From: Oscillospiraceae bacterium
GTDB taxonomy: Bacteria > Bacillota > Clostridia > Oscillospirales > Oscillospiraceae
DNA: 64,000 bases
Direction of reading: 5' to 3'
NCBI GenBank assembly: GCA_910575695.1
Contig: CAJTGJ010000017.1
Location: forward strand, 1 to 64,000
Numbering within the stretch: position 1 is the stretch's first letter; each line of letters begins with the position of its first letter. Shown one piece after another: positions 50,901-62,645 of this stretch. Both the position numbers and the translations under genes were made by a program. The notes under the pieces were generated by a model. The model made no database searches. It saw only the letters and a list, made by a program, of their open reading frames with translations, and was not told the origin of the DNA.

Positions 50901-52082
50901 ATGTCCAAGGAGCTGATCCGCCTGCGGGACTGCGTCATGTCCTACGGCGACGAGGTCGTGCTCGACCACATCAACCTGTATATCAATGACAAGGAATTCC
51001 TCACGCTGCTGGGCCCCAGCGGGTGCGGCAAGACAACCACGCTTCGTATCATAGGCGGGTTTCTGTCGCCGACCGCCGGGGACGTTTTATTTGACGGCGT
51101 GAGGATGAACGACGTCCCGCCCCACCAGCGGGCGGTAAACACGGTGTTCCAGCGGTACGCCCTGTTCCCCCATCTCAATGTGTTTGAGAACGTGGCCTTC
51201 GGCCTGCGCATACCCAAGGCGGACCAGACGGGCCGGAAGGTGAAGATCCCGGAGGCGGAGATCCACCGGCGTGTGATGGAGATGCTGGAGACGGTGAACC
51301 TGAAGGGCTTTGAGAAGCGCCCGGTGTCCGCCCTGTCCGGCGGGCAGCAGCAGCGGGTGGCCATCGCCCGGGCCCTGGTGAACCGGCCCCGGGTGCTGCT
51401 GCTGGACGAGCCTTTAGGCGCGCTGGATATGCGCCTGCGCAAAGATATGCAGAACGAGCTGAAGCGCATACAGCAGGAGATGGAGATCACCTTCATCTAC
51501 GTGACCCACGACCAGGAGGAGGCGCTGGCCATGTCCGACACGGTGGTGGTGATGGACGGCGGGCGCATCCAGCAGATCGGCACACCCGAGGACATTTACA
51601 ACGAGCCGAAAAACGCCTTTGTGGCGGACTTCATCGGTGAATCCAACATCATTGACGGCGTCATGCGCTCCGACGGGGTGGTGGAGATCTTCAACCGGCG
51701 GTTCCAGTGCCTGGACAAGGGCTTTGACAGGGACGAGCTGGTGGACGTGGTCATCCGCCCCGAGGACGTGGACATCGTGGACGAGGCGGCGGGACAGCTT
51801 CGGGGCGCCGTCACCTCCGTCACCTTCAAGGGGGTCCACTACGACACCATCGTGGACTTCTACGGTTTCAAGTGGCTGATCCAGACCACCGACTACTGCC
51901 CGGCGGGAAGCCGCATCGGCATCAAGATCGACCCGGACGGCATCCACGTCATGAAAAAGAGCCAGTATTCCGGTATGTTCGGGGACTACTCCTCCTATTC
52001 CGAGGAGTACGAGGAGCTGGACGCGCCGGAGCCGGAGGACGGGGAGGGGGCTGATCCCCCGGAGGGCGGCTATGAGGAATAA
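50901..52082 (+). CDS. potA: Spermidine/putrescine ABC transporter ATP-binding protein
   Basis: 393 residues. ABC motifs: [24 protein letters not shown]-type Q-loop [14 protein letters not shown], signature [20 protein letters not shown], Walker [21 protein letters not shown], and the H-loop in [14 protein letters not shown]. The C-terminal TOBE region (about 275-360) fits PotA. The tail is acidic and longer than usual ([20 protein letters not shown]). It starts the potABCD operon after GGGGGAGGA and overlaps potB. Confidence 0.95.
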
Positions 52083-52923
52083 ACGGGCCTGGTTCGCCTT
52101 TCCCTATGTGATCTGGATGGCGCTGTTCGTGGTGGTCCCCATCCTGATCATGGCGGTGTACGCCTTTACCGTTTCCGACCCCGCCACCCATACCGCAAGC
52201 CCCTCCATGGCGAATTTCATGGGCATGGGCGCGTACCTGTCCGTGTTCCTGCGCTCCTTCTGGCTGGCTGTTCTGGCCACCCTGGTGTGCCTGCTCATCG
52301 GCTACCCGGTGTCCTGCTGGATGGCCAGGGAGGGCGCGAAATTCCAGCGCATTGCCATGGCGCTGATCATGCTGCCCATGTGGATGAACTTCCTGCTGCG
52401 CACCTACTCCTGGATGTCCATCCTGGAGAACAACGGCCTGCTCAACCAGCTGTTCCAGGCCATCGGCCTGCTGGATCTGCTGGGGGTGGACTATATCCAC
52501 ATGATCGGCACCTCCGGCGCGGTGGTGCTGGGCATGGTGTATAACTACCTGCCCTTCATGATCCTGCCCATTTATTCCGTCATTGTGAAGCTGGACAACT
52601 CCCTGATCGAGGCCGCCCGGGACCTGGGGGCGGATTCGGCGCGGGTGTTCTCCAAGGTGATCTTTCCGCTGTCCCTGCCGGGGATTTTATCGGGGGTGAC
52701 CATGGTGTTTGTGCCGTCGGTGTCCACCTTCGCCATCTCCAGCCTGCTGGGCGGGGGCAACGAGATGATGCTGGGCGATCTGATCGAGCTTCAGTTCCTG
52801 GGCGGGGCCTACAACCCCCATTTGGGCGCGGCCATCTCCATGGTGATGATGGTCATCGTCGTTGTGTGCATGGTTGTCATGAACCACTTCGGCGAGGGCG
52901 AGGAACAGGCGGTGATCATGTAA
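52072..52923 (+). CDS. potB: Spermidine/putrescine ABC transporter permease
   Basis: 283 residues with six membrane helices; starts [20 protein letters not shown]. The EAA loop is [20 protein letters not shown], and the N-terminal half has the PotB-type [20 protein letters not shown]. It overlaps potA by 11 bases and potCD by one base (TAATG). Confidence 0.94.
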
Positions 52924-54932
52924 TGAAACGCTCTAACCGTATCGGGAGCCGCATCTTCATCGGCCTGACCTTTCTGTTTTTGTATCTGCCTATTTTCCTG
53001 CTGATTATTTTTTCCTTCAACGCCGGGGATTCCAGCGCGGTCTGGAAGGGCTTTTCCCTGGACTGGTACGCCGCGCTGTTCCAGAACCGGCTGATTATGG
53101 AGAGCCTGTACACCACCCTGCTGGTATCCCTGCTGGCCACCGTGATTTCCACAGCGGCGGGCACCTTTGCCGCCATCGGGCTGTACGCCCTGTCCAAGCG
53201 GAAGCGGGACGCCCTGCTGGTGGTCAACGATATCCCCATGATGAACGCGGATATCGTCACCGGCGTGTCCCTGTGCCTGTTCTTTGTGGCGTTTTTCCAG
53301 GGCTGGGGCGCGTTTGCGAAATGGTTCAACGGCATCCAGCCTGTGGTGGAGCTGCCTGACCGGCTGGTGCTGGGCTTCACCACCATGCTGCTGGCCCACA
53401 TCGCTTTCAACATCCCCTATGTGATTTTGAACGTGGCCCCCAGGCTGCGGCAGATGGACAAAAACCTGGTGGACGCCGCCCAGGACCTGGGCTGTACCTG
53501 GATGCAGGCGTTCTGGAAGGTGATCCTGCCGGAGATCAAGCCGGGCATCGTGTCCGGGGCGCTGATCGCCTTTACCATGTCCATCGACGATTTTGTGATT
53601 TCCTATTTCACCGCCGGGTCGTCCACCTCCACCCTGGCCATGCGGATCTACTCCATGACCAAGAAGCGCATCACCCCGGAGATCAACGCGGTGTCCACCC
53701 TGCTGTTTTTGTCGGTGCTGGTGCTGCTGGTGCTGAACAACGTCCGGGAGGTGCGCCAGGAGCGTCGGGCCGCCAGCCAGGAGGCGCGGGAGCCGTCCCG
53801 CCTGGAGAAGCTCTCCTTCCGCTTCCAGCAGCCCGCCTTCCAGTGGGCGCGCCGGGGCGTGACGGCGGCGCTGGCCTGCGTCTTTATCGTGGTGGTGGCG
53901 CTGCTCACCGGGGCCACCAGCTCCCAGCCGGTGGTCAACGTGTGCAGCCTGGGGGAATATATCGACGAGGATTTGATTATCCAGTTTGAGGACGAGACGG
54001 GCATCCGGGTAAACTATCAGACCGCCGAAAGCAACGAGGCCATGTACTCCCTGCTGAAAAGCGGCGGCGCGGACTACGATGTGATCGTCACCTCCGACTA
54101 TATGATCGCCCAGCTTATGGAGGAGGGGATGCTGGAGGAGCTCGACTACGGCCAGATCCCCAACTTTGAGCTCATTGACCAGCGGTTCCGGCATTTGTCC
54201 TACGATCCGGAAAACAGATACACCGTTCCCTACACCTGGGGCACCCTGGGCATCATCTACAACGCCAGCCTGGTGGACGGGGAGATCGACAGCTGGAGCG
54301 CGCTGTATGACGGCAAATACGCGGGCAATGTCCTGCTCATCAACAACTCCCGGGACGCCCTGGGGGCGGCCCTGCTGTCCCTGGGCCATTCGGTGAACAC
54401 CACCGACGAGGGGGAGATCCGGGAGGCGTTTGCCCTGATTTCCGGCGCCAGCCGCCGGGGCGTGTTCCAGGCCAAGGTGTCCGACCAGGTGTTCCAGAAG
54501 ATGGAGGGCGGCAACGCCGCCATCGCCACCTACTACGCCGGGGACTTCCTGTCCATGCTGGACAACCAGGCGGACGGGGTGGACCTGCGCTACGTGGTCC
54601 CGGAGGAGGGCGGCAACTGGTTTGTGGACGCCATGTGCGTCCTGCGGAACGCCCCCCACTATGAGGAGGCCCTGAAGTGGATCAACTTCATTGCCTCCAC
54701 TGACGCCAATCTGGCCAACATGGATACCATTTGGTATGCCTCCCCCAACACTGAGGCGCTGGAGCGGTACCCCGCCTACTACGAGGAGCTGTACGGCGAG
54801 GAGCTTGACCCAGAGCTGTATGAGATCATGGCCGCGCCGCCAGAGGTGCTGGAGCGGTGCGAGATGTATACCGTGCTCCCCCCGGCCACCCGGACGCTGT
54901 ACAATGACCTTTGGATTCAGCTTGGCACATGA
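52923..54932 (+). CDS. potCD: Fused polyamine permease and substrate-binding protein (PotC-PotD)
   Basis: 669 residues. Residues about 1-265 are a PotC permease (FIGLTFLFLYLPIFLLIIFS; EAA-like NLVDAAQDLGCTWMQAFWKV; MSIDDFVISYF). A linker of about 60 residues leads to a membrane helix (AALACVFIVVVALLTGAT), then about 330 residues of PotD binding protein begin at NVCSLGEYIDEDLIIQFEDE, with YTVPYTWGTLGIIYNASL and MDTIWYASPNTEALERYPAY. The binding protein is thus anchored to its own permease. Such fusions occur in Lactococcus and gut Clostridia. It starts at TAATG with potB and is closed by a terminator. Confidence 0.93.
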   Translation: MKRSNRIGSRIFIGLTFLFLYLPIFLLIIFSFNAGDSSAVWKGFSLDWYAALFQNRLIMESLYTTLLVSLLATVISTAAGTFAAIGLYALSKRKRDALLVVNDIPMMNADIVTGVSLCLFFVAFFQGWGAFAKWFNGIQPVVELPDRLVLGFTTMLLAHIAFNIPYVILNVAPRLRQMDKNLVDAAQDLGCTWMQAFWKVILPEIKPGIVSGALIAFTMSIDDFVISYFTAGSSTSTLAMRIYSMTKKRITPEINAVSTLLFLSVLVLLVLNNVREVRQERRAASQEAREPSRLEKLSFRFQQPAFQWARRGVTAALACVFIVVVALLTGATSSQPVVNVCSLGEYIDEDLIIQFEDETGIRVNYQTAESNEAMYSLLKSGGADYDVIVTSDYMIAQLMEEGMLEELDYGQIPNFELIDQRFRHLSYDPENRYTVPYTWGTLGIIYNASLVDGEIDSWSALYDGKYAGNVLLINNSRDALGAALLSLGHSVNTTDEGEIREAFALISGASRRGVFQAKVSDQVFQKMEGGNAAIATYYAGDFLSMLDNQADGVDLRYVVPEEGGNWFVDAMCVLRNAPHYEEALKWINFIASTDANLANMDTIWYASPNTEALERYPAYYEELYGEELDPELYEIMAAPPEVLERCEMYTVLPPATRTLYNDLWIQLGT

Positions 54933-55497: not shown

Positions 55498-56625
55498 ATG
55501 AAACCAAAACGGACCCTTGCGCTTCTGCTCTGCGCGGCGCTTCTGCTCACGGCCCTGTCCGCCTGCGGCGCCACCGTGGTGGTGGTGGAGGGCGGCGGGA
55601 ACGCAGGGACCCCCACTGGCGCGCCGGACCCCGCCGGTGAGCCCGGCCCCACCCAGGAGCCGGAACCCACCCAGGAGCCGGACGGCCAGCCCGGCGGTGA
55701 AACCACCGCCGTCAAGACCGGGCTGGCGGTGCTCCCCAGCCTGAGCGCCAGCGCCAGCGCTTCCGGCGAGGGCGACGGCGCCGCCCAGGCCGACATCCTC
55801 CTGGTGGCGGTCACGGTGGACGACGACGGCGTCATTGACAGCTGCATCATCGACTCTATCCAGGCCAAGATCGGCTTCAACGCCCAGGGCGCTCTGACCC
55901 CCCCCCTGGACACCACCTTCGCCACCAAGCTGGAGCTGGGCGACGACTACGGGATGCGGGCCGCCAGCCCCATCGGCAAGGAGTGGAACGAGCAGGCCAA
56001 CACCCTGGCGGGCTACGTAGCAGGCAAAACCGCGGACGAGCTGAAGGGCATCGCCCTGGATGACAGCGGCCACGCCGTGGACGAGCCGGACCTGACGGCC
56101 TCCGTCACCATCGGCATCAGCGACCTGCTGGAGGGCGTGGAGGCCGCTGTGGCCAACGCCGCCCATCTGGGCGCCTCCAAGGGGGACAAGCTGGGGCTGG
56201 CCGCAGAGACCAACATGGCGTCCAGCAAGGACGCCTCCAGCGAGGAGGAGGGGCTGGCCCAGGCCTATGCCACCTTCGCCGTCACCACCACCGGCGGCGG
56301 CGTCATCACCAGCTGCCTCATTGACGCCCTCCAGGCCAACGTCAGCTTCGACACCGCCGGACAGATCACCACCGATTTGGCCTCCGTCCCCAAGACCAAG
56401 AACCAGCTGGGGGACGATTACGGCATGGTAGCTGCCAGCTCCATCGGCAAGGAGTGGTATGAGCAGGCCGCGGGCTTCTGCCAGTATGTCACCGGCAAGA
56501 GCGCGGACGATGTGGCCGGGCTGGCGGTGAACGGGGAGGGCAAGGCGGCCGACGCCGACCTGGCCGCCGCCGTCACCCTGAGCCTGGGGGATTTCCAGGC
56601 AGTCGTGGAAAAAGCCGCGAAGTGA
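55498..56625 (+). CDS. Tandem-repeat lipoprotein of the Rnf locus (function unknown)
   Basis: 375 residues. Lipoprotein signal with lipobox LSACGAT; then a Pro/Glu/Thr-rich linker (about 30-85). Two copies of a domain of about 130 residues follow: both carry a V(D/T)GVI(D/T)SC(I/L)ID segment, then ELGDDYGMRAASPIGKEWNE in the first and QLGDDYGMVAASSIGKEWYE in the second, and a final ASVTIGISDLLEG / AAVTLSLGDFQA part. There is no (S/T)GATxT flavinylation motif. It lies 25 bases before apbE in what looks like one transcript with rnfC-D-G. An extracellular role in electron transfer is inference; no family is recognised. Confidence 0.75.
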   Translation: MKPKRTLALLLCAALLLTALSACGATVVVVEGGGNAGTPTGAPDPAGEPGPTQEPEPTQEPDGQPGGETTAVKTGLAVLPSLSASASASGEGDGAAQADILLVAVTVDDDGVIDSCIIDSIQAKIGFNAQGALTPPLDTTFATKLELGDDYGMRAASPIGKEWNEQANTLAGYVAGKTADELKGIALDDSGHAVDEPDLTASVTIGISDLLEGVEAAVANAAHLGASKGDKLGLAAETNMASSKDASSEEEGLAQAYATFAVTTTGGGVITSCLIDALQANVSFDTAGQITTDLASVPKTKNQLGDDYGMVAASSIGKEWYEQAAGFCQYVTGKSADDVAGLAVNGEGKAADADLAAAVTLSLGDFQAVVEKAAK

Positions 56626-56644
56626 ACCGGCACAGCGAGGCGGT

Positions 56645-57685
56645 ATGGGCATGAAAGAAAGAATTGTATCACTTGCGCTGGGACTGGCGCTCCTGCTGAG
56701 CGGCTGCGCCGCCCCCGCCGACCTGGCCGCCGGGCCGGAGCTGGCCCGGTATGAGGCCAGCTTTTTGACCCTGTTTGACACGGTGACCTCCATCGTGGGC
56801 TATGCCGGGACGGAGGAGGCCTTTCAGGCCGAGGTCCAGGAGTTCCACGACGCGCTGGAGGAGTATCACAAGCTGTTTGACGCCTACAACGAATACGCCG
56901 GGATGAACAACATCAAGACCATCAACGACAGCGCCGGGGAAGAGGCCGTCCCGGTGGACGGGCGCATCATCGACCTGCTGCTGTTCTGCCGGGAGCTGGA
57001 GCGGCTCACGGACGGACGGGTGGACGTGACGATGGGAAGCGTGCTGTCCCTGTGGCACGACGCCCGGGAGCGGGGCATCAACGACCCGGAACACGCCGCC
57101 CTCCCCGACGGGGACGCCCTGCGCGCCGCCGCACAGCACACCGGATTCGATCTGCTGGAAATTGACGAGGAGGCGTCCACCGTCCGCCTCACCGACCCGG
57201 AGGCCCGCCTGGACGTGGGGGCGGTGGCCAAGGGCTACGCCGTGGAGCAGGTCTGCCGGCAATCCCCCGCCGGGCTGCTGGTGAGCGTGGGCGGCAACGT
57301 CCGGGCCACCGGGCCCAAGCCCGACGGCCCCTGGGTGGTGGGCATACAGGACCCGGACGGCGGCGAGAGCTACCTCCACACAGTTTACGTGGAGGACGCC
57401 GCCGTGGTCAGCAGCGGCGACTACCAGCGCTATTATACCGTGGACGGGGTGCGCTGGCACCATATCATCGACCCGGATACCCTCTATCCCGCGAAATATT
57501 GGCGGGCCGTCACCGTTTTGTGCGCCGATTCCGGCCTGGCCGACGGCCTGTCCACCGCTCTGTTCCTCCTGCCCCGGGAGGAGGGGGCCGCTTTGGCCCG
57601 GAGCTGCGGGGCCGAGGCCATGTGGGTGGCGCTTGATGGCGCCCTGTTTTACACGGACGGCTTCCTGGAGGCCGTCCGGACCTGA
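56645..57685 (+). CDS. apbE: FAD:protein FMN transferase ApbE
   Basis: 346 residues. N-terminal lipoprotein signal (LALGLALLLSGCAAP) and the ApbE core: ASFLTLFDTVTSIVGY, DGRVDVTMGSVLSLWHDARE, LDVGAVAKGYAVEQVCRQSP with the conserved GAxAKGYA, VSVGGNVRATG, and YYTVDGVRWHHIIDPDTLYP. It attaches FMN covalently to Thr in (S/T)GATxT motifs of RnfG and RnfD on the outer face of the membrane. It sits directly upstream of rnfC, so its targets are the neighbouring RnfD and RnfG. A second ATG at 56651 is possible. Confidence 0.95.
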   Translation: MGMKERIVSLALGLALLLSGCAAPADLAAGPELARYEASFLTLFDTVTSIVGYAGTEEAFQAEVQEFHDALEEYHKLFDAYNEYAGMNNIKTINDSAGEEAVPVDGRIIDLLLFCRELERLTDGRVDVTMGSVLSLWHDARERGINDPEHAALPDGDALRAAAQHTGFDLLEIDEEASTVRLTDPEARLDVGAVAKGYAVEQVCRQSPAGLLVSVGGNVRATGPKPDGPWVVGIQDPDGGESYLHTVYVEDAAVVSSGDYQRYYTVDGVRWHHIIDPDTLYPAKYWRAVTVLCADSGLADGLSTALFLLPREEGAALARSCGAEAMWVALDGALFYTDGFLEAVRT

Positions 57686-57719
57686 CCCATACTTCTCCGA
57701 TTAAGAGGTGATGTGTGTG

Positions 57720-59027
57720 ATGAAATTACCGTTTTTCGGCGGCGTCCACCCGGACGGACATAAGGGCCTGAGCGCCGCCGCCCCCCTTGCCGCCATGCCG
57801 CCCCCCGCCCGGGTGGCGATCCCCCTGCGCCAGCACATCGGCGCGCCCTGCAAGCCGCTGGTAAAGGCGGGGGACGCCGTGCGCATGGGCCAGAAGATCG
57901 GCGACGGCGAGGGCCTGTGCGTCCCGGTCCACGCGTCGGTGTCCGGCGTGGTGGAGGCTATTGAGGACCGCCCCCATCCCGGCGGGGGGCTGTGCCTGTC
58001 GGTGGTGATCAAAAATGATTTCCGGGACACCCCCGACCCGGCCATGAAGCCCCGGCCCAATCCGGAAAAGCTCAGCCCCGAGGAGCTGATCGGCATCATC
58101 CACCAGGCGGGACTGGTGGGCATGGGGGGCGCGGCCTTCCCCACCGACGTGAAGTCCCAGACCTGCGTGGGCCATGTGGACACCGTAATCCTCAACGCCT
58201 GCGAGTGCGAGCCCTATATCACCGCAGACGATATGCTGATGCGCACCCGGCCCGGGGATGTGCTCCGGGGTCTGGCTGTTTTCATGCGCATCCTGGCCCC
58301 CGGGGAGACGGTGGCGGCGGTGGAGGACAACAAGCCCCAGGCCGTCGAGGCTTTGAAACAGCAGCTCCCCAAGACGCCGGGGATCCGGCTGAAGGTACTG
58401 CCCACCCGCTACCCCCAGGGGGCGGAAAAGCAGCTGATCCAGGCTGTCACAGGCCGTCAGGCGCCCTCCGGCGGACTGCCCCGTGACGTGGGCTGCGCCG
58501 TGTTCAACGCCGCCAGCGCCGCCGCCGTGTGCCGCGCCGTCTACGAGGGCGTCAGCGTGTACGAGCGCATCGTCACCGTCACCGGGGAAGGGGTGAAACA
58601 GCCCCGGAACCTGATTGTCCGGGTGGGGACCTCCTTTCAGGAGGTCATCGACGCCGCCGGAGGGCTGACGGACGACGTGTGGAAGGTGCTGTCCGGCGGG
58701 CCCATGATGGGCATCGCCCAGAGCAGCCTGTCCGTCCCGGTCACCAAGGCCACCAACGCGGTTTTGTGCCTGTCCAACGCCCAGAACGGGGAGAGCGGGC
58801 GCCCCGTATGCATCCGGTGCGGCAAATGCGTGGAGGCGTGCCCCATGCGGCTGGAGCCGCTGTATCTGTACCGCTTTTCCAATGCGGGCAATCTGGACGC
58901 CCTGAAGCGGCTCAGCCTGATGGACTGCATTGAGTGCGGCTGCTGTGCCTACACCTGCCCCGGCAAGGTCCCCCTGGTGACGGGCATCCGCAAGGGCAAG
59001 CGGGCGCTGAAGGAGGGAGCGAAATGA
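57720..59027 (+). CDS. rnfC: Electron transport complex subunit RnfC
   Basis: 435 residues. N-terminal barrel-sandwich part (KLPFFGGVHPDGHKGLS), a central FMN/NADH-binding part (GLVGMGGAAFPTDVKSQ, ILNACECEPYITADDMLMRT), SLBB-like GTSFQEVIDAAGGL, and a C-terminal pair of [4Fe-4S] clusters (CIRCGKCVEACP and CIECGCCAYTCPGK). RnfC takes electrons at the cytosolic side of the complex. GAGGTG is nine bases before the ATG. It overlaps rnfD by four bases. Confidence 0.95.
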   Translation: MKLPFFGGVHPDGHKGLSAAAPLAAMPPPARVAIPLRQHIGAPCKPLVKAGDAVRMGQKIGDGEGLCVPVHASVSGVVEAIEDRPHPGGGLCLSVVIKNDFRDTPDPAMKPRPNPEKLSPEELIGIIHQAGLVGMGGAAFPTDVKSQTCVGHVDTVILNACECEPYITADDMLMRTRPGDVLRGLAVFMRILAPGETVAAVEDNKPQAVEALKQQLPKTPGIRLKVLPTRYPQGAEKQLIQAVTGRQAPSGGLPRDVGCAVFNAASAAAVCRAVYEGVSVYERIVTVTGEGVKQPRNLIVRVGTSFQEVIDAAGGLTDDVWKVLSGGPMMGIAQSSLSVPVTKATNAVLCLSNAQNGESGRPVCIRCGKCVEACPMRLEPLYLYRFSNAGNLDALKRLSLMDCIECGCCAYTCPGKVPLVTGIRKGKRALKEGAK

Positions 59028-59998
59028 ATCTGACTGTCAGCCCGTCCCCCCACATCCGGGGGAAGGACACCGTCTCCCGGCTGATGCTGGATGTGGTGAT
59101 CGCCCTGCTTCCCGCGCTGGCGGCGGGGTTCCTCATCCACGGCCTCCGGGCGGCGGCGGTGACGGCGGTGTCCGTCCTGTCCGCCCTGGCGGGTGAGTGG
59201 CTGCTGGGCCTGCTCCCGCACCGCCGCGTCACCCTGCCCGACGGCTCCGCTTTGGTCACCGGGCTGCTGCTGGCCATGACCCTGCCCGCCAGCGTGCCCT
59301 ATTATATCCCCATCATCGGCGGGCTGTTTGCCACAGTGGTGGTGAAGGGCCTGTGCGGCGGCATCGGACAGAACACCTTTAACCCCGCCCTGAGCGCCCG
59401 GGCCCTGCTGATGCTGCTGTTCCCGGTGTGGCTGACCCGCTTCCCCGCGCCGGACGCCAGCCTGCCCCTGGGCGGCATCCGCGCCGCGGACGTGGTGGCC
59501 GGGGCCACCCCGCTCCACCATATGCAGATGCCCGCCCTGCCGGAGCTGTCCCTGGCTGACGCCTTCCTGGGCCGCATGGGGGGCTGTATCGGCGAGACGT
59601 CCGCCCTGGCCCTGCTCGTTGGCGGCGCTTATCTGGTGTACCGCAGGGTCATCAGCATCCGCATACCCGCCGCCTATCTGGCCAGCGTGGCGGTGCTCAC
59701 CCTGATCTTCCCCAAGGGGGATGACCCCCTGCTGTGGATGGCCTACAGCCTGCTCAGCGGCGGCGTGGTGCTGGGGGCCGTCTTCATGGCCACCGACTAC
59801 GCCACCTCCCCCGTGGGGCCCGCCGCGCGGCTGGCCTACGGCGCGGGCTGCGGCGCGCTCACCGTGGTGTTCCGCTATACGGGGCTGTTCCCGGAGGGGG
59901 TCACCTACGCGATTCTGATTATGAACGCCGGGGCCTGGCTGCTTGACCGCTGGCTGACGCCCACGGTGTACGGCAAGGCAAAGGAGGCGGCGGAATGA
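59024..59998 (+). CDS. rnfD: Electron transport complex subunit RnfD
   Basis: 324 residues with about ten membrane helices. The family start SPHIRGKDTVSRLMLDVVIA, LVTGLLLAMTLPASVPYYIP and GGIGQNTFNPALSARALLML are present. The flavinylation Thr is in DVVAGATPLHHM. FMN would be attached by ApbE. The start overlaps rnfC (ATGA) and the stop overlaps rnfG by four bases. Confidence 0.95.
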   Translation: MNLTVSPSPHIRGKDTVSRLMLDVVIALLPALAAGFLIHGLRAAAVTAVSVLSALAGEWLLGLLPHRRVTLPDGSALVTGLLLAMTLPASVPYYIPIIGGLFATVVVKGLCGGIGQNTFNPALSARALLMLLFPVWLTRFPAPDASLPLGGIRAADVVAGATPLHHMQMPALPELSLADAFLGRMGGCIGETSALALLVGGAYLVYRRVISIRIPAAYLASVAVLTLIFPKGDDPLLWMAYSLLSGGVVLGAVFMATDYATSPVGPAARLAYGAGCGALTVVFRYTGLFPEGVTYAILIMNAGAWLLDRWLTPTVYGKAKEAAE

Positions 59999-60543
59999 AA
60001 CAGAAGCATTTGCTGGCCCCCGTCACAGCCATCGCGGCGGCGGCGGTAATTTTGCTGGCGGTCTCCCTGGGCACAAAGGGGATGGCCGCGGACCGGGCGG
60101 AGGCGGACCGTATCGAAATCATGAGCTATATGCTCCCCACCCGGCCCGCGTCCTTTGAGGAGGAGCCCTATGACGGCGGGGACGAGAGCATCCGCCGGGT
60201 ATACAAGGCGGACGGCGGCTATGTTATCGAGGCAGAAGCCTCCGGCTACGCCGGGCCGATGGTGCTCTGGGTGGGCGTCACCGACGGGGGAGAGGTGTCC
60301 GGCGTGACGGTGCGCCGGCACAGCGAGACCCCCGGCCTGGGGCGGCGCGTCCAGACCATGGACGGCTATCCCTTCCTGGCCCAGTTTCTCCACACCGGCG
60401 GGGAGGCCGCTGTGGGCGAGGACATCGACGGCCTCACCGGGGCCACGGTCACCAGCAAGGCGGTCGCCCGGGCGGTCAATTCCGCCGCCGCCGTGGTCAC
60501 CGGCGCGGATACCTCCTCCGGCGCTACGGAATGGGGTGGTTGA
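59995..60543 (+). CDS. rnfG: Electron transport complex subunit RnfG
   Basis: 182 residues: an N-terminal membrane helix (LAPVTAIAAAAVILLAVSL) and an extracellular FMN-binding domain with GDIDGLTGATVTSKAVARAV-like DIDGLTGATVTSKAVARAV. The Thr of TGATVT is the covalent FMN site. The upstream HSETPGLGRRVQTMDG is also characteristic. It overlaps rnfD by four bases and is followed directly by a small membrane protein instead of rnfE. Confidence 0.95.
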   Translation: MKQKHLLAPVTAIAAAAVILLAVSLGTKGMAADRAEADRIEIMSYMLPTRPASFEEEPYDGGDESIRRVYKADGGYVIEAEASGYAGPMVLWVGVTDGGEVSGVTVRRHSETPGLGRRVQTMDGYPFLAQFLHTGGEAAVGEDIDGLTGATVTSKAVARAVNSAAAVVTGADTSSGATEWGG

Positions 60544-60544
60544 T

Positions 60545-60979
60545 ATGAGGGAACATCCGCTGAAGCTGAATATCATCCTGGCTGCGGTGGCGGGGGCGGC
60601 CTGTCTGGCCCTGTCCCTGGGCGGGGCCCTGGCCCCCGGTGCCATCATGCCCAGGTTCGATTTGGTGATGATGCTGTCCATCAGCCTCATTGCCCTGACC
60701 ATTGACGCCTACTGGGGGCCCAGGCGTCCCCGGCCCTGGTTCTGGACGGCGGCGCTGGGCACGGCTGTGTTCACCCTCCTGCCCTGGTGCGCCGGGGTGG
60801 CGGGGGGCGTCGCGCCGGGGGTGCTGGGCCTGTCCGGCGGCACGGTGTTTACGGTGACGGCTGTGCTGTACGCCGCCGCCATGGAGCGGATCGCCACCGG
60901 GCCCAAGGCCCCGCTGGCCCCGGCGGGCACCGCCCTGATGATGTTTTTGGCGGGGCAGTGCCTGAGCGGCCTGCTGTAA
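60545..60979 (+). CDS. Unrecognised membrane protein in the Rnf locus
   Basis: 144 residues with about four hydrophobic segments (LNIILAAVAGAACLALSLGG; LVMMLSISLIALTIDAY; FWTAALGTAVFTLLPWCAGV; LAPAGTALMMFLAGQCLSGL). It lies where rnfE/rnfA would be expected, starting two bases after the rnfG stop with GGGGTGG upstream. It lacks the two-fold repeat and length (about 190-200 residues) of RnfA/RnfE. I cannot assign a family. It may be a substitute membrane partner of the RnfCDG module. Confidence 0.6.
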   Translation: MREHPLKLNIILAAVAGAACLALSLGGALAPGAIMPRFDLVMMLSISLIALTIDAYWGPRRPRPWFWTAALGTAVFTLLPWCAGVAGGVAPGVLGLSGGTVFTVTAVLYAAAMERIATGPKAPLAPAGTALMMFLAGQCLSGLL

Positions 60980-61083: not shown

Positions 61084-61887
61084 TCACCAATTATCTTTCT
61101 GCTCCGCGTACAGAGCGGGCAGGATCGCGGCCAGATGGCCGAACTCCTTCAAATTGTGGGCAAACAGACCCTGGGGCGCCTGGGGCGGGACGGATACGCC
61201 GTCGGGCAGCAGCTTGGCCACCCGGCCGTCCACCAGGCCCCAGCCGATCCAGAAGCGGCTGCGCAGCTCAATGCCGCCCTCCACCTCCCGGACGAAGTGG
61301 GTCATGATGGCGGCGACGCCCTGGCCGGGGACGGGCCCGTGGCCGTTGGCGCACATCAGGGCGGCGCAGAGCTCCGTGCCCACCTTTTCCTCCTCGTAGC
61401 CCAGCTCGTGGGGATAGCGGAACTCCAGAATGAGCTGGTCCGGCCCCGCGCCGATGTCCTCCAGAACGTGGTGGACGGTGCCCCAGGTCTTTTCCCGCAT
61501 GGGGACGCTGGGGTCCAGCACCTTTTCCGGCATCTGCTGGCGGGCGTAAAAGTGGTCCTCCGGGTCCCAGATGCGGTAGCGCATATCGTTGAGGCCGTGC
61601 CAGGCAAACCACCACTCGAACATCTCCGGGGTGACGCCGGGCATCCGGGTCAGGTTGGCCAGGTAGCCCGTGCCGTCAGGCATCACGCAGTACCCGATCT
61701 CGCAGGGCAGATAGCCGGGCTTGAACAGGTCGTTGCGGCGTTCGATGGGCAGGGCCAGGGCCGGGTCGATGGGCCCGCCCTCCAGTACGGCCAGCTTTTC
61801 CGGGGGAATGGGGGTGATGGGCAGGTCGTAGTACTTGGAGTAGGGCAGGGCGCGCTCCTCGGGGGTCAGGACAGGTCTTTGGCTCAT
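61084..61887 (-). CDS. DAPG/phloretin hydrolase-like protein (PhlG type)
   Basis: 267 residues, no signal peptide. The metal-binding helix is FEWWFAWHGLNDMRYRIWD with the following DPEDHFYAR; further His/Glu ligands would be in EFRYPHELGYEE and in THFVREVEGG. This matches the DAPG_hydrolase group, whose members split aryl ketone C-C bonds, e.g. 2,4-diacetylphloroglucinol in Pseudomonas and phloretin in Eubacterium ramulus. It suggests breakdown of flavonoids such as phloretin. AAGGAGG precedes the ATG. A divergent TetR regulator at 62085 probably controls it. Confidence 0.82.
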   Translation of the reverse strand: MSQRPVLTPEERALPYSKYYDLPITPIPPEKLAVLEGGPIDPALALPIERRNDLFKPGYLPCEIGYCVMPDGTGYLANLTRMPGVTPEMFEWWFAWHGLNDMRYRIWDPEDHFYARQQMPEKVLDPSVPMREKTWGTVHHVLEDIGAGPDQLILEFRYPHELGYEEEKVGTELCAALMCANGHGPVPGQGVAAIMTHFVREVEGGIELRSRFWIGWGLVDGRVAKLLPDGVSVPPQAPQGLFAHNLKEFGHLAAILPALYAEQKDNW

Positions 61888-61930
61888 ATCAGGCTTCCTC
61901 CTTGCTGTATTTGTGGGCTGTACTGAATTT

Positions 61931-61959
61931 ATGATACCAGACGGGGGCAGATTTGTACA
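61931..61959 (-). promoter_or_regulatory. Promoter of the PhlG-like hydrolase gene
   Basis: Minus-strand TGTACA (61954-61959) and TATCAT (61931-61936), 17 bases apart. It is back-to-back with the regulator's promoter at 62032-62060. Confidence 0.5.
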
Positions 61960-62031
61960 GACCGCCCGGGGGGCCGCTGTTCACAAAATGCACAGAGAAG
62001 GGAAAAGTGTCCAACTTTCCGGTTTTCTCTC

Positions 62032-62060
62032 TTGCCACGGCTGGGAAAAAGAAATACAAT
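62032..62060 (+). promoter_or_regulatory. Promoter of the TetR regulator gene
   Basis: TTGCCA (62032-62037) and TACAAT (62055-62060) with a 17-base spacer, 24 bases before the start codon. The operator is probably between this and the divergent promoter. Confidence 0.6.
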
Positions 62061-62084
62061 ATAAATAAAAAGGGGCTGGTCACG

Positions 62085-62645
62085 TTGGGAGCAAACCGCA
62101 GGGAGCTGAACCGGCAGCGCACGGTGGCGGATATCGAGCAGGCATTCCTCCAGCTCTACCGGCGGGACGGAATCGACGGCGTCAGCATTTCCGCCGTCTG
62201 CGCCCTGAGCGGCGTCGCCCGCTCCACCTTCTATCTGTACTTTGAGGATAAATACGCGGTGCTCCAGGGGGTGGAGGACCGGCTTTTGTCCGCGCTGTGG
62301 GACATCTGCGGAAACCTGCCCGACCTGCTGGCACACAGGGGCGGGTCGGAAAACGCCCTGCGCACCATTGCCCATATCCGCGCCAACATCGATTGGTACC
62401 GGGCCCTGCTGGGCCGCCGCGGCGACCCTATGTTCGTCTACCGCTGGAAGCGGGATATCGACCGCAGCCTGCGCCGCAAGCTGGAGCAGCGGAACACAGG
62501 CCGTCAGGACGCCGACGTCCAGGGGGTGATTTTCGCCTCGGCGCTCATCGGGCTGTACACCTATGTGATCTTTGAATACCCCGATATCCCAGACCGGGAC
62601 CTGTGCCGCTATATGGACGGCCTGCTGGCGCAGATCCTGCCCTGA
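62085..62645 (+). CDS. TetR-family transcriptional regulator
   Basis: 186 residues. HTH: VADIEQAFLQLYRRDGIDGV, SISAVCALSGVARSTFYLYF, EDKYAVLQGVEDRLLS. The C-terminal ligand domain (about 70-186) is typical of the small TetR regulators with a C-terminal TetR_C_7-like part. TTG at 62085 is nine bases after AGGGG and fits the HTH start; no ATG fits. It is divergent from the PhlG-like hydrolase gene, so it is likely its aromatic-responsive repressor (inference). Confidence 0.9.
   Translation: MGANRRELNRQRTVADIEQAFLQLYRRDGIDGVSISAVCALSGVARSTFYLYFEDKYAVLQGVEDRLLSALWDICGNLPDLLAHRGGSENALRTIAHIRANIDWYRALLGRRGDPMFVYRWKRDIDRSLRRKLEQRNTGRQDADVQGVIFASALIGLYTYVIFEYPDIPDRDLCRYMDGLLAQILP

Follow-up and report, generated by a model that had tools for sequence, protein, structure and literature searches.

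Can the half of an Rnf complex that faces NADH stand without the half that faces ferredoxin? The question is raised by a 64,000-nucleotide stretch from an Oscillospiraceae bacterium (assembly GCA_910575695.1, contig CAJTGJ010000017.1, positions 1 to 64,000; here the window), which carries at 55498-60979 a compact, plus-strand operon for a lipoprotein (LP), ApbE, RnfC, RnfD, RnfG and a 144-residue membrane protein, X. None of rnfE, rnfA and rnfB lies in the locus. A sequence-only reading of the window had described this gene order, tight from rnfC on and followed not by E, A or B but by a PhlG-like gene on the opposite strand, and each element was found in its place: rnfC and rnfD overlap by 4 bases, as do rnfD and rnfG, a single base separates rnfG from X, and the gene 3' of X encodes a PF18089 (PhlG-like) hydrolase on the minus strand. 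As a variant of Rnf, the cassette is akin to the two-subunit NQR/RNF-like half complexes already in the literature. We consider it probable that it forms the NADH arm of Rnf without the ferredoxin arm, replaces the Ndh2/quinone arm of flavin-based extracellular electron transfer (EET) and passes electrons outward to LP.

Cassette RnfC, RnfD and RnfG are true members of the Rnf complex (RnfCDGEAB; Clostridium tetanomorphum 7zc6, Acetobacterium woodii 9eri), as judged by family models and the PDB. RnfC (57711..59027), the NADH/flavin mononucleotide (FMN) subunit with two [4Fe-4S] motifs, scores 502.8 bits against TIGR01945 (cut-off 245.95). RnfD (59024..59998; 324 residues), the membrane flavin subunit with flavinylation residue Thr162, scores 277.1 bits against TIGR01946 (cut-off 207.05); its sole Pfam match is PF03116, with no fused PF00175 NAD domain. 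RnfG (59995..60543), the membrane-anchored FMN_bind subunit, falls below the cut-off of TIGR01947 (79.3 bits against 102), and nonetheless matches PF04205 (E 1.5e-17) and holds T-G-A-T at residues 148-151. All eight cluster cysteines of RnfC and the flavinylation Thr of RnfD occur in 31/31 cassette copies, and the G-A-T of RnfG in 30/30. With ApbE (FAD:protein FMN transferase, 56645..57685) matching PF02424 at E 1e-64, the earlier claim that the flavinylation motifs of RnfD and RnfG are kept and that ApbE is present holds. A C. tetanomorphum study places Asn90, Asn124, Glu185 and Asp248 along the Na+ path; Asn124 and Glu185 are found in 31/31 cassette copies and Asp248 in 30, with one gap, and Asn90 is replaced by Thr/Ser in all 31, as it also is in 22 of 40 complete-operon rows. 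Separately, a second SGAT lies at the extreme C-terminus of RnfG (residues 175-178; 60517-60528), a possible extra flavinylation site, which recurs in four of the five other copies from the genus and reads SSAT in the fifth.

The arrangement is not confined to the window. The same six genes stand in the same order in five other genomes of the genus, and a scan of genome contigs for RnfD returned 73 loci, of which 30 (L017-L045, L048; RnfD identity 57-79%) carry the cassette, so that the six-gene observation is more than chance. Five of these 30 (L017, L019-L022) come from those same five genomes of the genus (L012-L016); with L117, L118 and the window, the set comprises 33 loci. Their hosts are Oscillospiraceae (including Flavonifractor, Pseudoflavonifractor, Faecousia and Avoscillospira) and Lachnospiraceae (including Roseburia), the remaining records being labelled just Bacillota, Clostridiales, Eubacteriales or bacterium. 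Comparison of neighbourhoods, as the sequence-only reading had advised for the 144-residue protein, thus shows a recurrent cassette in which X is kept wherever the contig reaches it, in 32 of the 33 loci (the contig of L048 ends too early); in L029, L038 and L041 the search missed it because of its divergence, and it was recognised as the reading frame after rnfG. LP is present in 32 and ApbE in 30, the contig of L034 starting too late for either. No rnfE, rnfB or cysteine-bearing rnfA was found in the fetched stretches of the 33 loci, some of whose contigs are short, and no match to rnfE or rnfA of any kind. By contrast, rnfE is present in 41 of the 43 other scan loci (L046, L047, L049-L089), and the contigs of the other two, L057 and L086, end early. 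X itself is present in 6 of 60 relatives and, at the level of the order, in 6 of 394 genomes, each count including the window's own genome; a class-wide draw of 391 genomes gave only its own match and one weak match of 46 residues, which indicates a narrow distribution. As a side observation, a gene for a small membrane protein lies just upstream of LP in 11 loci (L017-L023, L026, L028, L043, L045), the L045 copy having a match to DUF1622; no such gene was seen in the window.

In principle, an operon that has lost E and B and whose X resembles a shortened RnfA might simply be decaying and functionless. With the redox residues kept in 31/31 copies and the same order held in two families, we find this explanation scarcely credible.

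Phylogenetic analysis places the cassette in a single lineage. The RnfD tree covers 80 of 84 loci, the remainder being too short, and unites its 32 cassette rows in a single clade (100/99); in the RnfC tree the 33 cassette rows form a single fork (100/99). The 'module' label in these trees denotes loci without an rnfE or rnfA match and is hence partly defined by absence, with X and LP checked apart; L057 and L086, where rnfE was unseen, were set to 'canonical' by hand, and L086 has rnfA. The sister group of the cassette rows, in both trees, comes from complete operons in other genera of the same family (L113-L116) rather than from the Rnf of the window genus. A single clade with this sister indicates that the cassette arose once from a normal Rnf operon, and the nesting of Lachnospiraceae rows within it suggests later transfer.

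The sequence-only reading had allowed that the missing genes might lie elsewhere on the genome. They do, on contig C2, yet as part of a complete C-D-G-E-A-B operon of another clade, which contains the only two PF02508 (RnfA/E) matches of the assembly, side by side. The missing subunits therefore exist, but not as a complementary half: the whole-genome search for an intact partial rnfE-A-B operon found none, and rnfE stands in place of X in 0 of the 32 cassette loci whose contig extends beyond rnfG. Two genes 3' of C2 rnfB resemble NusG_II and EetB (as queries, they match genes so named by Pfam). The assembly (G000) measures 5.06 Mb in 296 contigs with 6.08% contamination, other genomes of the genus being 1.7-5.8 Mb and mostly below 3.8; it is perhaps a mixed bin, and because of this size and contamination the C2 operon might stem from another organism. 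Cassette and complete Rnf also occur together in three genomes of the same genus, G002, G015 and G027 (contamination 3, 1 and 0%).

This co-occurrence could mean that cassette C, D and G are alternative subunits assembling with the RnfE, A and B of the complete operon, which is present in G000 and in seven of the ten other X-bearing genomes, where RnfA/E was found. The remaining three, G014 (84% complete), G021 (94%) and G301 (99%), had neither an RnfA/E match nor an RnfB above cut-off, their ferredoxin-like matches being weak; a missing contig could account for one of them, less easily for all three. Moreover, X occupies the position of E, and cassette C and D form a separate clade. We therefore regard shared assembly as very unlikely.

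What, then, is X? The gene (60545..60979) encodes 144 residues with five predicted membrane helices and has no Pfam match, and its AlphaFold2 model also shows five helices (mean predicted local distance difference test score 83). A profile built from 29 X sequences (leaving out the duplicate genomes L017 and L019-L022, together with L040, L048 and later L117 and L118) matched an RnfA profile over 56 columns at the C-terminus with a score of 43.6 and a probability of 88%. Against the same RnfA profile, the best of 150 block shuffles scored 26.8, the best of 50 full shuffles 17.9 and the reversed alignment 14.4, and X against the RnfE, RnfD, RnfG, EetB and UbiA profiles scored 11.8-16.7. The match was stable when the RnfA set was split (43.3 with 36 rows, 33.8 with 8), and when the X model was run against 1469 proteins the ten best matches after X itself were RnfA sequences (E 1e-4 to 0.04). 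The cluster cysteines of RnfA, Cys36 and Cys124 in L003 numbering, are held by 37 and 36 of 44 RnfA sequences; no such pair was found in X, where no Cys column is held by more than 18 of the 29 sequences.

Several results weigh against this assignment. None of the 29 X members matches PF02508; a PDB profile search gave a best E of 0.67 (a cytochrome bo3 subunit); structure matches were at background level; the best NCBIfam match is a NuoL model (E 0.0026, 16.9 bits against a cut-off of 380); and the sequence link to RnfA consists of one profile comparison over the 56 columns. Taking both sides together, we judge from the sequence comparisons that X probably represents an RnfA that has been shortened and has lost its cluster ligands. 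The proposal of a distinct system with a substituted membrane subunit thus stands in part: the system is distinct and Rnf-derived, with a conserved extra subunit, but X is probably a degenerate RnfA and not a foreign protein.

The first conserved gene of the cassette (55498..56625) encodes LP, a lipoprotein of 375 residues with lipobox LSAC, composed of two homologous domains that probably have an FMN_bind-like fold. Each domain offers a candidate flavinylation site: Thr204 in domain 1 (D-L-T-A-S-V-T; 56107..56109), which aligns with the Thr of SGAT in 2kzx, and Thr360 in domain 2 (D-L-A-A-A-V-T; 56575..56577), both with a putative function. The LP alignment comprises 25 rows, leaving out five duplicates (L017, L019-L022), L024 (partial), L040, L117, L118, the three loci with a double LP (L030, L036, L044) and L034, whose contig lacks LP. 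Position 204 is Thr in 24 rows and Ser in one, position 360 is Thr in 23 and Ser in two, and an Asp at -6 with Thr/Ser at 0 is kept in both domains in 25/25. In the three double-LP loci, all Lachnospiraceae, LP is doubled within a single open frame upstream of ApbE (two LP matches, about four domains).

These sites have to be set against less favourable results. LP has no Pfam FMN_bind (PF04205) match, its score against the RnfG profile is 16.2 where shuffles reach up to 25 (no signal), and Foldseek alone puts IscU proteins first. The standard [S/T]GA[S/T] flavinylation motif is absent from all LP rows examined, which, with the modest fold evidence, leaves room for another explanation: the half-Rnf may serve an unlinked partner, such as a membrane quinone or a surface reductase, and LP may be a substrate- or flavin-binding protein that merely lies beside ApbE. 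LP loci outside the cassette argue otherwise. In 18 of the 20 fetched, ApbE adjoins LP (the contig of L150 ends there, and L155 has none), and in 18 of the 20 no other open reading frame of the stretch carries the standard motif, the two exceptions being an FMN_bind protein in L151 and a minus-strand frame over LP in L156. The paired Asp and Thr/Ser of both domains also speak against it, and we consider an unlinked partner rather unlikely.

These 20 loci are among the strongest non-cassette matches to the LP profile, which in a draw across the phylum matched 79 of 398 genomes, many over just the signal-peptide end. The eight most similar LPs (L139-L146; 48-54% identity) lie in loci of the order Ndh2-prenyl synthase-UbiA-NusG_II-LP-ApbE, with Ndh2 and a polyprenyl synthase in seven, UbiA in eight and NusG_II in seven; seven of the loci are whole or nearly so, the contig of L142 ends inside UbiA, and Pfam assignments cover genes of L139 and L144 only. 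EetB adjoins LP in L139, and in L143 it lies on the far side of Ndh2. We take EetA to be the NusG_II protein, and the synthase and UbiA to be the demethylmenaquinone genes. The layout is that of the Listeria-type flavin EET locus (ndh2, dmkA/B, eetA/B, fmnA/B, pplA; gene list in PMC10373932), with LP in the position of PplA; EetB corresponds to PF07456, an FAD exporter family (PMC9973259). At the other twelve LP loci (31-38% identity) Ndh2, the synthase, UbiA, NusG_II and EetB were not found. As a further observation, this distant branch from other Bacillota (L147-L158) has ApbE beside LP in 10 of 12, and its fetched stretches gave no match to Ndh2, UbiA or Rnf C/D; these are flavinylation pairs to which no electron donor is assigned. 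The RnfG model gave only weak matches at the non-cassette loci (L141, L145, L152 and L154; E 0.004-0.01).

An LP tree of 43 of 45 rows (L148 and L152 were incomplete) unites the cassette LPs in one clade (100/99). A 100/100 branch separates them, together with the LPs of the Ndh2 loci, from all other LPs. The lipoprotein, formerly listed as an unknown partner, is thus kin to the LPs of flavin-based EET loci. Both systems set ApbE/FmnB beside a two-domain surface lipoprotein, although the SGAT motifs of the PplA/cAD1 precursor, as reported in PMC7074142, are absent from LP, and the cassette has RnfC-D-G-X in place of Ndh2 and the quinone genes. At 11 of the 32 fetched cassette loci, EetB and NusG_II homologues lie no more than 9 kb away; none of the 32 gave a match to Ndh2, the synthase or UbiA. 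Full-length Ndh2 of that type was found in 0 of 11 cassette genomes, the controls G612 (the query source) and G713 giving strong matches.

How might such a cassette work? In Rnf, according to the structural papers (PMC9588780, PMC12174285), electrons make two passages across the membrane: RnfB and RnfA/E carry them to RnfG, and RnfD and RnfC return them to NAD+. Loss of E, B and the A cluster would leave one crossing between NADH and the outside, and with LP-ApbE attached, NADH oxidation with outward transfer is the simplest reading. NADH would reduce the FMN of RnfC, and the two [4Fe-4S] clusters of that subunit would relay the electrons to riboflavin and FMN in RnfD, from where they would reach FMN on RnfG in a single outward crossing. 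RnfG would then reduce the surface lipoprotein LP, which would in turn reduce an acceptor outside the cell, be it flavins, iron, quinones or another surface protein. ApbE would attach the FMN groups, and X would occupy the site of RnfA as a cluster-free structural remnant. The cassette would thereby do for NADH what Ndh2 and demethylmenaquinone do in flavin-based EET, with the same LP-ApbE outer part.

The direction of flow deserves separate weighing. The same half-Rnf could run inward, an extracellular donor reducing LP and RnfG, and RnfC reducing NAD+: the forward Rnf reaction runs the D-to-C step inward, and the residues do not fix a direction. LP relatives, however, stand in Ndh2 loci, where NADH is oxidised outward, and electron transfer from NADH to flavin is downhill. 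Inward flow is thus unlikely, and outward flow remains our preferred reading. Some observations count against the latter: the RnfC-RnfD step in Rnf can run either way; neither of the two Roseburia loci has an ApbE match; EetB and NusG_II are absent near the window's own cassette; and weak partial Ndh2 matches occur in 8 of the 11 cassette genomes. A fuller version, which we advance with some reserve, is a quinone-independent EET chain of gut Oscillospiraceae and Lachnospiraceae that leads from NADH through RnfC-D-G, with X as a remnant, to LP flavinylated by ApbE in both domains at a new motif, D-L-x-x-x-x-[T/S].

Compared with the Rnf complex, the cassette lacks RnfE and RnfB, has RnfA either absent or reduced to the cysteine-less X, and adds LP. 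The half-complex and single-crossing idea was published by Meheust et al. in 2021 (PMC8238504) and taken up in a 2024 paper (PMC10979944, PMC11334425), so the principle is already known; the subunit make-up differs. As proposed there, NQR/RNF-like half complexes take electrons from NAD(P)H across the membrane once, to an FMN_bind protein on the extracytosolic side, but they consist of two subunits, with an RnfD-like protein fused to an NqrF-type NAD domain (PF00175), and occur mainly in Actinobacteria and the Candidate Phyla Radiation. Their RnfD-like flavinylation site is not conserved, whereas cassette RnfD keeps it; the NADH subunit here is RnfC, X and LP are added, and the PF00175 fusion that defines those complexes is missing. 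In the published survey criteria consulted, Rnf was called by RnfB, EET by Ndh2 and NQR/RNF-like systems by the PF00175 fusion; all three are missing from the cassette, which those criteria would not assign. Searches of the open-licence literature turned up no description of this cassette.

Around the cassette, the window holds a divergent pair adjoining it at 61084-62645, the PhlG-like hydrolase (PF18089) and a TetR-type regulator; a PhlG gene beside the cassette was not found in the 30 cassette loci of the RnfD scan. Just upstream, at 50901-54932, lies an ABC transporter set (ATPase, permease, and a permease fused to a solute-binding protein), presumably of polyamine type. Open reading frames related to this set lie downstream of the cassette in the Lachnospiraceae loci L030, L036 and L044, at about 13.3-17.7 kb.

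In Gram-positive gut anaerobes, the route from NADH to the outside is known mainly as Ndh2 and demethylmenaquinone. The cassette would add a second inner arm, derived by halving Rnf, to an outer arm of the same kind. This suggests that nature can separate the two halves of Rnf, in agreement with the two-crossing model, and the six genes offer a target in genera of which some members are in culture (Flavonifractor, Pseudoflavonifractor). Should the quinone-independent chain hold, the same LP family would also serve as the flavinylated carrier at a branch of Ndh2-type loci in other Bacillota.

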